Shown here: piece after piece, positions 53,867-56,153 of the stretch
Layout of the letters: the number at the start of each line of letters is the position of its first letter
Position numbering within the stretch: position 1 is the stretch's first letter
Assembly (NCBI GenBank): GCA_937958985.1
Contig: CALGLV010000001.1
Coordinates: 1 to 64,000, forward strand
DNA length: 64,000 nucleotides
From: an uncultured Aquimarina sp.
GTDB taxonomy: Bacteria; Bacteroidota; Bacteroidia; Flavobacteriales; Flavobacteriaceae
Direction: 5' to 3'
Position numbers and translations under genes: made by a program
The notes under the pieces: model-generated
Databases searched by the model: none
Seen by the model: only the letters and a program-made list of their open reading frames with translations
What the model was told of the DNA's origin: nothing

Positions 53867-53907
53867 TTGCTACAAATAAATATATTTAATGATTACATTT
53901 GTAGCAA
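53867..53907. promoter_or_regulatory. operator of the LexA-like repressor operon
   Basis: Perfect 11-bp arms TTGCTACAAAT (53867-53877) and ATTTGTAGCAA (53897-53907) with a 19-nt spacer; the right arm ends exactly at the ATG of the repressor. TACATTTG at 53894-53901 matches TAnnTTTG, so the -7 element is mostly inside the right arm. A repressor dimer bound here would block RNA polymerase. No TTG sits at the ideal -33 distance. Confidence 0.72.
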
Positions 53908-54678
53908 ATGAAGTATTTAGCAAAAAACCTAGTACATTTACGTAAACATAAAAACCTTTCTCAAGCAAAGCTTGCCACAGATTTAGGCATTACCCGAGCG
54001 CGTATAAGCTCTTACGAAGATGCTCGCTCACTACCCAGTCTTGAGTTTATGGTTAAATTATCAAACTACTACAACATCACTGTAGATATTTTACTTAAAA
54101 ACAATTTAACAATAGAAGATGATATTTCCTTTATAAATCTAAATAACAAACGCATATTGTTCCCTATTACAATAGATACTAATAATGAAGATTTAATAGA
54201 AATTATCCCCACTACAGCACAAGCAGGATACCTTTCTGGTTATGATGATCCTGAATATATTGAACAACTAAAAAAAATAAAACTTCCCTTTTTACCTATA
54301 GGGCAACACCGCGCTTTCCCTATTAAAGGAGACTCTATGTTACCTATTAAAGATGGGGCTTATGTAATTGGAAAATTTATTGAAAATAAAAGTGATTTAA
54401 AAACAGGAAGAACCTATGTTTTAGTCACTCAAAACGATGGCATTGTTTACAAACGAATTGAAAATAATTTAGAAGAAAACAATACATTAAAATTAATTTC
54501 AGATAATAAAAAATACAACACCTACTCCATTCACATTTCTGAAATTTTAGAAATATGGGAATTTTCATGCTCTATAAACACACAAGAATATTCTGAAAGC
54601 GAACTTAAATTAAGTAGCATACTTAGTATGTTTAATGATTTAGGGATACAGTTAGAACAATTAAAAAAACTACTTTAA
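53908..54678 (+). CDS. LexA-like autocleavable repressor (XRE-HTH with S24 domain)
   Basis: 256 residues. N-terminal XRE-type HTH (about 7-60, LSQAKLATDLGITRARISSYE) replaces the winged HTH of true LexA. The S24 domain carries the cleavage site Ala106-Gly107 (TTAQAGYLSG), catalytic Ser143 (KGDSMLPIKDG) and Lys182 (IVYKRIE); spacings of 37 and 39 residues (Ser-Lys 39, Ala-Ser 37) compare closely with the 35 and 37 that separate the E. coli LexA residues. So RecA-stimulated self-cleavage and derepression after DNA damage are predicted. A short C-terminal helix follows. The start codon touches the inverted repeat above, and the stop overlaps the next start (TAATG). A phage-type CI is the alternative, but no phage genes are near. 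Confidence 0.88.
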   Translation: MKYLAKNLVHLRKHKNLSQAKLATDLGITRARISSYEDARSLPSLEFMVKLSNYYNITVDILLKNNLTIEDDISFINLNNKRILFPITIDTNNEDLIEIIPTTAQAGYLSGYDDPEYIEQLKKIKLPFLPIGQHRAFPIKGDSMLPIKDGAYVIGKFIENKSDLKTGRTYVLVTQNDGIVYKRIENNLEENNTLKLISDNKKYNTYSIHISEILEIWEFSCSINTQEYSESELKLSSILSMFNDLGIQLEQLKKLL

Positions 54679-56015
54679 TGATTTATTCTATTATTGACGT
54701 AGAAACTACTGGTAAAACAAATAGAATTACTGAGATTTCTATTTTTAAATTTGATGGAGAAAAAGTAATCGATGAATTTACTTCTTTAGTAAATCCCGAA
54801 AACCTAATTCCCGATCATATTACCGCATTAACAGGCATTGACATGGTATTGGTTGCAAACGCTCCAATTTTTGAAGAGATTGCTCATAAAATTTTAGATT
54901 TCACTAAAGACACTATTTTTGTAGCTCATAATGTAAATTTTGACTACAACGTAATTCATGGTGAATTTAAAAGACTTGAATTAAAATTTATACGTAAAAA
55001 ACTGTGTACGGTTAGACTCTCTAGAAAGCTTTTACCAGGCCATAAATCCTATAGTTTAGGCAAACTATGCACTGCGCTGAGTATTGATCTAAAAAACAGG
55101 CACCGTGCTCGTGGTGATGCTGAAGCAACTGTAATACTTTTTGAATTACTTCTAAAACAAGCTGAAGCTTCCGAAGTAATTGACTCTTTTCTAAAAAACA
55201 ACTCTAAACAAGGAACCCTTCCTCCTAATTTACCAGAAGAAGAGTTTGAGGCTTTACCTGAAACACCCGGTATTTATTACTTTAGAAACAAGAAAAATAA
55301 AATTATTTATATCGGAAAAGCAAAAAATATAAAAAAAAGAGTGCTCAGCCATTTCTATGACAAAAAACAAAAAGAGCTTGATTTATGTAGAGAAACTGCT
55401 AGTATAGATTTTGATTTATCAGGAAGTGAATTAATTGCACTTCTTATGGAAGACGCTGCTATAAAACAACATTACCCTGAATATAATGTGGCTTCAAAAA
55501 AAGCAATTCGTCCCTACGCCATTTTAAATTACACCGATAGAAAAGGAATTATTCATTTTGCAGTTAATACCTTAAAATCTACTCCCAATCCATTAACTAT
55601 AGTTTACAACAAACGAGAAGCATTAATTTATTTGGAAAAACTATGCGAAAATTTTGAGCTTTGTCCTAAATTTTGCCATTTACAAGAAAGCATAAAACAA
55701 TGCAACCACTATAAAATCAAAACCTGTAAAGGTATTTGCATCGAAAAGGAAAGTATCGCATTATACAATACTAGGGTAAAACAAGCACAGCAATTTATAA
55801 CCGAAAATTACAATAATTTAATATTAAAGCAAAAAGGCAGAGAAGCATCTGAAATGGCCTTTATTCAAATAAAAGACGGGGTTTACCAAGGATATGGCTT
55901 TGTGAGTAACGAAATTCAAATTACTAATGATGATGAATTAGAAGCTTATATAATTCCTCAAAAAAACAATATGGATATTGAGCGCATTTTGAGAAAGGAG
56001 CTACTACTTAATTAA
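54678..56015 (+). CDS. DnaQ-like exonuclease fused to UvrC/Cho-like GIY-YIG nuclease
   Basis: 445 residues. Residues 1-160 are a DEDDh 3'-5' exonuclease: Asp7/Glu9 (IIDVETTG), Asp89 (HNVNFDY) and the His142-x4-Asp147 pair. Residues about 195-275 form a GIY-YIG nuclease (GIYYF ... IIYIGKAKNIKKR with Arg221), then a Cys-containing C-terminal region (CPKFCHLQES, CKGIC). Epsilon-Cho fusions of this kind occur in several bacteria and resemble UvrC-type repair incision followed by trimming. It is translationally coupled to the LexA-like gene, so it is probably DNA-damage-induced. The activity is predicted, not shown. Confidence 0.9.
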   Translation: MIYSIIDVETTGKTNRITEISIFKFDGEKVIDEFTSLVNPENLIPDHITALTGIDMVLVANAPIFEEIAHKILDFTKDTIFVAHNVNFDYNVIHGEFKRLELKFIRKKLCTVRLSRKLLPGHKSYSLGKLCTALSIDLKNRHRARGDAEATVILFELLLKQAEASEVIDSFLKNNSKQGTLPPNLPEEEFEALPETPGIYYFRNKKNKIIYIGKAKNIKKRVLSHFYDKKQKELDLCRETASIDFDLSGSELIALLMEDAAIKQHYPEYNVASKKAIRPYAILNYTDRKGIIHFAVNTLKSTPNPLTIVYNKREALIYLEKLCENFELCPKFCHLQESIKQCNHYKIKTCKGICIEKESIALYNTRVKQAQQFITENYNNLILKQKGREASEMAFIQIKDGVYQGYGFVSNEIQITNDDELEAYIIPQKNNMDIERILRKELLLN

Positions 56016-56118: not shown

Positions 56119-56153
56119 AAACAGGGGCTATATTTAAATATAGCCCCTGTTTG
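56119..56153. terminator. bidirectional terminator between nuclease and beta-glucosidase genes
   Basis: Stem ACAGGGGCTATATTT with its full complement is flanked by A and T runs and lies between convergent genes, 22 nt from the beta-glucosidase stop. Confidence 0.92.

Follow-up and report, generated by a model that had tools for sequence, protein, structure and literature searches.

A LexA-like repressor and an exonuclease/GIY-YIG nuclease in a probable DNA-damage operon of an uncultured Aquimarina, with related nucleases of the genus behind a second SOS-box sequence

Results and Discussion

A repressor gene overlapping a repair nuclease gene

The window analysed is a stretch of 64,000 nucleotides from the genome of an uncultured Aquimarina sp. 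(assembly of 2,121,638 bases, 80.5% complete). Two genes on its forward strand overlap by a single base. The first (53908-54678) encodes an S24 repressor of 256 amino acids with an XRE/CI-type helix-turn-helix (HTH), a non-canonical LexA of the Bacteroidetes kind, and the second (54678-56015) encodes a protein of 445 amino acids that combines a DEDDh exonuclease, a UvrC/Cho-type GIY-YIG nuclease and a cysteine cluster. The overlap with the repressor stop reads TAATG, in agreement with the first-pass annotation of this DNA. Between the nuclease and the converging gene lies a 34-bp palindrome (56119-56152) that is terminator-like on both strands.

The repressor matched the Pfam models HTH_3 and Peptidase_S24 above cut-off, with HTH_3 and HTH_19 as its HTH matches. 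The LexA winged-HTH N-terminal model (PF01726) was not among its eight Pfam matches at E ≤0.1, which bears out the earlier reading of an XRE-type HTH in place of the winged one. The self-cleavage set that had been described as complete is indeed entire, with all residues of the Ala106-Gly107 cleavage site, Ser143 and Lys182 in place and invariant across 59 aligned rows, window included. Two more distant repressors outside this alignment (L009 and L010) have Met-Gly at the cleavage position; directly before their ATG lies a 17-bp palindrome (TGATACAA-N-TTGTATCA). The structure model of the repressor was poor (pLDDT 61) and was used for its parts only; its best matches were LexA entries, chiefly over the C-terminal part, and its HTH part matched XRE-type domains, among them those of DdrO, ImmR and HipB, at the low confidence of the whole model. 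Phage-type repressor profiles were the best matches in PHROGs.

S24 repressors with a CI-type HTH run the SOS response of Bacteroidetes via GGA-N5-TCC or CTAA-N5-TTAG motifs, according to the text of Sanchez-Osuna et al. (2021; PMC8565304). In our tree the window repressor fell in a 38-row clade (100/98, midpoint root) together with six rows whose promoters carry canonical CTAA-N5-TTAG sites, and the GGA-group paralogue from its own genome fell outside this clade on a long branch. We would place the repressor in the CTAA-N5-TTAG group, a placement resting on rows with canonical sites in their promoters and on the operators of sister loci. A third type of S24 repressor (approximately 30-45% identity over the matched part) was seen in congeners and other genomes (L024-L033, L146, L149), directly followed in L146 and L149 by a small conserved ORF. 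One genome (G117) carries two close copies of the repressor (L148, L121), one of which overlaps a nuclease gene, with an ImuB match in the locus of each copy.

The nuclease matched RNase_T and GIY-YIG above cut-off in Pfam, and its structure model (pLDDT 87) had PDB matches to exonucleases of the DnaQ/PolC type and to the GIY-YIG domain of UvrC. In an alignment of 71 rows (one cut at its start) covering the presumed catalytic residues, D7, E9 and D89 were retained in 70 rows and H142 and D147 in 71, G198, Y200, E258 and N270 in 71 and Y211, G213 and R221 in 70, and the cysteines C329, C350 and C354 in 71, C333 in 68 and C342 in 69. No Pfam match to a UvrB-binding or a Cho-specific C-terminal domain was found in the nuclease, and UvrC and Cho profiles matched it only as far as residues 392 and 372, respectively. 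As regards a possible anti-phage role, the PADLOC models matched were those of HTH and exonuclease proteins; the top one was the candidate PDC-S48, covering nuclease residues 2-178 (E 3.8e-40). A second exonuclease/GIY-YIG gene, 39% identical to that of the window, is located elsewhere in the same genome (G000:C37:31707-33032), and many congeners have a gene of this type, the 35-43% paralogue discussed below.

An inverted repeat at the promoter

A perfect 11-bp inverted repeat, TTGCTACAAAT (53867-53877) and ATTTGTAGCAA (53897-53907) separated by 19 nt, abuts the repressor gene, the final base of the repeat at 53907 being followed without a gap by the ATG at 53908. Overlapping its right arm is a -7 promoter element, TACATTTG (53894-53901, forward strand), which fits the Bacteroidetes -7 consensus TAnnTTTG. 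Arms, spacer, abutment and the covering of the -7 element are all exactly as had been described. Transcription would start at the ATG or a few bases before it.

Searched for across the genome, as had been suggested with the original description, the dyad TTGCTACAAAT-N19-ATTTGTAGCAA was matched at ≤3 mismatches by the window copy alone in the whole assembly. When the 104-bp intergenic stretch was resampled 3000 times under a first-order Markov model, 16 resamples contained some perfect 11-bp inverted repeat with a spacer of 0-30. Over the whole window, perfect 11-bp repeats were commoner than chance, with 72 overlapping matches (many of them nested registers of one repeat) compared to 0-5 in six resamples. 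Judged by chance statistics the dyad is unusual without being overwhelming; these do not settle its status, and conservation in relatives does.

A similar dyad (CTACAAATATATTACAATTATATTTGTAG) occurs elsewhere in the genome (L037; G000:C37:67600-67628), followed by a tmRNA-like start recognized by eye. It also faces a dehydrogenase-like gene and may represent a divergent promoter pair.

Tandem operators in related promoters

When the promoters of 26 linked relatives and two unlinked repressors were aligned with that of the window, the aligned promoters displayed (G/A)CTACA...AAGC, 5 bp and GCTTA...TGTAGC, a pair of 17-bp frames whose centres are separated by 22 bp. Relatives carry two tandem operators of the form CTAN-N5-NTAG, 22-23 bp from centre to centre, over the -7 element, and TAnnTTTG overlaps the second operator in 26 of the 29 aligned promoters. 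The corresponding frames of the window are O1 (TGCTACAAATAAATATA; 53868-53884) and O2 (TGATTACATTTGTAGCA; 53890-53906), also 22 bp apart from centre to centre, with the -7 element within O2. In the O1 core (53870-53882; CTAC-AAATA-AATA) the outer half-site CTAC is intact and the inner half has decayed; in the O2 core (53892-53904; ATTA-CATTT-GTAG) the outer GTAG is intact and the inner half is one change from CTTA, the commonest form in the clade. The window's own promoter contains no intact N5 dyad, only its outer half-sites being intact, and its score, 7 of 12 core positions, is close to the 7.5 averaged by shuffles.

Among class-level relatives (43-52% identity) 18 of 26 non-redundant promoters, drawn from 29, had at least 10 of the 12 core positions compared to 1.0% of shuffles, and nine scored 12/12, that is, two complete N5 operators in the same places; 23 bp was the best among spacings of 14-40. 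In the close set (33 non-redundant of 56 promoters, with L146, L147 and L149 excluded as more distant) 16 of 33 reached this score compared to 0.9% of shuffles, with a best spacing of 22 bp; the test was not blind, since the 22-bp spacing came from the close set itself and the 22-23 range was chosen with both lists already in view. The tandem pattern was absent from the order-level set (L009-L023), with none of 13 promoters at 10 or more core positions. Three relatives (L061, L066, L070) have CTCA-N5-(G/T)TAG in both frames. A short TAC-N4-GTA palindrome in the right arm was also considered and then dropped, as L039-L041 and L043 are without it. Across 17 genomes the tandem pattern at ≤3 mismatches was matched in 13, mostly at the genome's own repressor promoter (five matches for the reversed control), and no match was found in the window's own genome, G050, G005 or G007. 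The genome of L102 gave two extra matches in this search.

Relatives with two complete operators, together with inner halves of AATA and ATTA in the window, suggest that the dyad is best explained as the outer half-sites of a tandem pair of operators whose inner halves have largely decayed. The 11-bp repeat with its 19-nt spacer is real, and it is the earlier reading of it as one operator that is disfavoured. A single long operator is nonetheless conceivable here, in which the outer half-sites, with 31 bp from CTAC to GTAG, are recognised by two dimers or by one tetramer and the inner halves have lost their role, loosely as at the operator of UmuDAb. The arms are perfect over 11 bp in both the window and L038, and in the 29 aligned relatives outer bases are kept in 22-28 (O1 C25, T27, A22; O2 G26, T28, A26, G26) compared to 18-22 for the inner bases of O1. 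The UmuDAb operator is described as atypically large, tolerating loss of one arm and fitting a two-site model (PMC11332147). However, the nine class-level promoters with both N5 operators complete in the same places disfavour this alternative, which we regard as unlikely. O1 is also complete in L108, L127 and L140, the O2 inner bases T, T and A are kept in 25, 26 and 29 of 29 relatives (although TA doubles as part of the -7 element), and family members in the published EMSAs need both halves at N5 (PMC8565304).

It is far less probable still that the inverted repeat is not an operator at all and represents a hairpin in the mRNA or a pair of opposed -7 elements. The right arm does hold TAnnTTTG, and the similar dyad before the tmRNA-like sequence resembles divergent promoters. 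However, nothing annotated faces left at this locus, as the upstream neighbour gene runs in the same direction, and a transcript from the -7 element would exclude the repeat, as that element is inside the right arm. Conserved bases also reach past the -7 element, and the spacing at which the tandem pattern recurs is fixed.

Linkage of repressor and nuclease, and operators in trans

Scanning with the nuclease yielded 70 loci. In 26 of them the repressor gene is directly upstream and runs into the nuclease gene, the overlap being 4 nt in 23 loci and 1 nt in three. No linked repressor was seen in the other 44 loci; 10 of these have fewer than 500 bases upstream and one (L096) is cut inside the gene, so that absence of linkage there rests on little sequence. 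Two nucleases with no repressor within 2.5 kb upstream (L042, L102) have a perfect CTACAAGTTGTAG dyad before the gene, and in both genomes the repressor (53 and 55% identity) is encoded at another place, with the tandem pattern at its promoter. A small protein gene sits just before each of these nucleases (L042:2084-2434; L102:2046-2396), the former product giving a GIY-YIG match slightly below cut-off. The unlinked repressor L108 carries CTACATTTTGTAG and, at the tandem spacing, another operator that is half intact; L109 is alike except for one change in the dyad. Each of the 3.6-Mb genomes of L042 and L102 has a single GCTAC-N5-GTAGC site, before the nuclease (reversed-pattern control 3 and 0); across 10 genomes there were 1-3 sites in each (reversed control 0-3), with two in the window's own genome.

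In 41 further genomes, 26 had a repressor at least 55% identical elsewhere. Counting L042 and L102, 28 unlinked nucleases have a repressor elsewhere in the genome, and CTAN-N5-NTAG was present within 150 bp of three (0.8 expected). The other 25 had no operator within 150 bp, so control of the nuclease by this repressor is not universal. The motif was found at none of the 15 unlinked nucleases whose genomes are without such a repressor (0.3 expected), and GGA-N5-TCC at none of 43 unlinked nucleases.

A Y-family polymerase (ImuB-like by eye) lies opposite the repressor in eight of the 26 linked loci, at approximately 52 bp in seven and at 479 bp in one more. In six of these an ORF taken as DnaE2 follows the polymerase, and the one tested (L053) has a PHP domain. 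The genome of L054 has the same tandem operator before an unlinked ImuB-like polymerase. At class level, 10 of 29 loci have an ImuB match opposite the repressor within approximately 260 bp, and five have a nuclease match downstream, which in two is directly adjacent. In the window genome and four congeners the polymerases found were only those that we take, from N-terminal sequence, to be DinB- and UmuC-type, so the visible regulon here is the repressor-nuclease pair.

A second SOS-box sequence within the genus

The start of the UmuC-type gene of the window genome is preceded by GGA-N5-TCC at approximately 43 and 24 bp; the box recurs at -71 and -30 of a second S24 repressor in this genome (27% identity). 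Neither gene of the window operon has GGA-N5-TCC in the 250 bp upstream of it. With both UmuC and the second S24 repressor carrying GGA boxes, two damage circuits seem to coexist, and the window repressor is probably not the main SOS regulator of its genome. A recA match was absent from the 80.5%-complete assembly and present in the close relative G050 (99% complete).

Among 66 genomes of the genus, that of the window included, 65 had at least one nuclease match, and many had also or only a 35-43% paralogue. A nuclease 63-100% identical to that of the window was found in eight (one partial) and a 50-54% type in 30, with both in none, and by coordinates the repressor is adjacent in five of the eight. 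Boxes were searched for over whole fetched stretches, the start of the G003 nuclease being located separately. GGA-N5-TCC was upstream of the 50-54% nuclease in all 20 stretches fetched (0.2 expected by chance), at least twice in 19 of them, and the remaining one has a single site beside a masked base. At the 35-43% paralogue neither GGA-N5-TCC nor CTAN-N5-NTAG was found in any of 15 fetched stretches. The 50-54% type forms a single clade (100/100), placed beside the Flavobacteriaceae set of linked and unlinked nucleases. The nuclease thus meets two SOS-box sequences in sister lineages. These two box sequences, set against a paralogue with none in the stretches covered, are the strongest indirect support that the nuclease would be damage-induced, and argue that this little-studied exonuclease/GIY-YIG fusion is a true SOS effector in Flavobacteriaceae.

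A damage link might instead be historical, the repressor being active but answering another signal or having lost its response to RecA, and the nuclease being a general repair enzyme. Unlinked loci that hold the repressor without an adjacent nuclease, the 25 of 28 unlinked nucleases without an operator, the best PHROGs matches and the Met-Gly of the related L009 and L010 all point that way. Weighed against the invariance of Ala-Gly, Ser and Lys in 59 rows, the error-prone-type polymerase opposite the repressor in eight of 26 linked loci and the GGA boxes over congeneric nucleases, this explanation seems to us decidedly improbable.

We propose, as a reading about evenly balanced between right and wrong, that within one genus the same SOS nuclease is placed under two alternative LexA families. 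One set of species would have it behind paired GGA-N5-TCC boxes (20 of 20 examined, of 30 with this type). A smaller set that includes the window species would have it under its own dedicated CTAA-group repressor. The latter would be a second and independent damage switch, reduced from a regulon of polymerase plus nuclease to one nuclease operon and with tandem operators worn to their outer half-sites. No earlier report of the 22-23-bp tandem geometry or of a box swap within a genus was found in the parts of the literature covered. Such a locus would be a compact natural case of SOS rewiring, with one nuclease, two LexA families and one genus. Its stages are kept in related genomes, as linked, unlinked but boxed, and unlinked and unboxed forms, and it allows one to test the reading of tandem operators by a CI-type LexA and the effect of decay in the inner half-sites.

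Proposed mechanism

We consider it likely that the window locus is a two-gene DNA-damage operon of a known kind, comprising an autoregulated LexA-like repressor and a repair nuclease. Repressor dimers bound in tandem over the -7 element would block transcription, the half-decayed operators of this strain presumably still functioning. RecA filaments on damaged DNA would then stimulate self-cleavage of the repressor at Ala106-Gly107 via Ser143 and Lys182. Binding, cleavage and induction are here predicted from the published properties of the family. Repressor and nuclease would next be synthesised jointly, presumably with translational coupling, and the nuclease may act on lesions, the GIY-YIG domain incising and the exonuclease digesting. 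Newly made repressor would reset the switch.

Comparison with known systems

Canonical LexA shares the S24 self-cleavage domain with the window repressor, which in contrast has an XRE/CI-type HTH and no winged HTH, the LexA N-terminal model being absent from its Pfam matches. UmuDAb/DdrR (PMC11332147) and FddR (PMC13148647) are likewise described as S24 repressors acting without LexA on small regulons, but they have other DNA-binding regions and their operators are TTGA-N4-GTWAC-N4-TCAA and GTG-N11-CAC, respectively.

The nuclease resembles the Cho+Exo and Cho-like+Exo proteins of PMC1564403 in its N-terminal exonuclease, GIY-YIG domain and cysteine region, but it has no UvrB-binding Pfam match, and those proteins, as far as that text describes them, come from Betaproteobacteria and Actinobacteria. 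For the mycobacterial fusion, the same paper gives a proposal in which the GIY-YIG domain incises and the exonuclease then digests through the lesion.

The repressor family and its GIY-YIG exonuclease regulon are already known and the kind is not new, since PMC8565304 names both and predicts that, under either motif, a GIY-YIG exonuclease (COG0847) and the repressor's own gene are regulated. EMSA binding and mitomycin induction are reported there for one member per motif group and also for a paralogue with a diverged operator, and changing either half-site or the length of the spacer abolished binding. The diverged LexA of Elizabethkingia anophelis in that study has, like the window repressor, a drifted N5 operator (TTAC-AAATT-GTAA), and it faces an error-prone polymerase as in eight of our 26 linked relatives. 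In that case, however, the dyad is intact by EMSA, and the nuclease is not named as a partner in the text covered.

The closest system is the CTAA-N5-TTAG group of that paper, with which the window repressor shares a CI-type HTH joined to an S24 domain with Ala-Gly and Ser-Lys, an operator at its own promoter and N5 dyads; the regulon predicted there includes the GIY-YIG exonuclease, imuB-dnaE2 and the repressor itself. In contrast, its operators have drifted to CTAC/GTAG half-sites with decayed inner halves, and its visible regulon here is one operon in a genome that adds an S24 repressor and a UmuC with GGA boxes. Relative to the known Bacteroidetes switch, the operators have drifted, and related nucleases in the genus lie behind a different LexA-type box.
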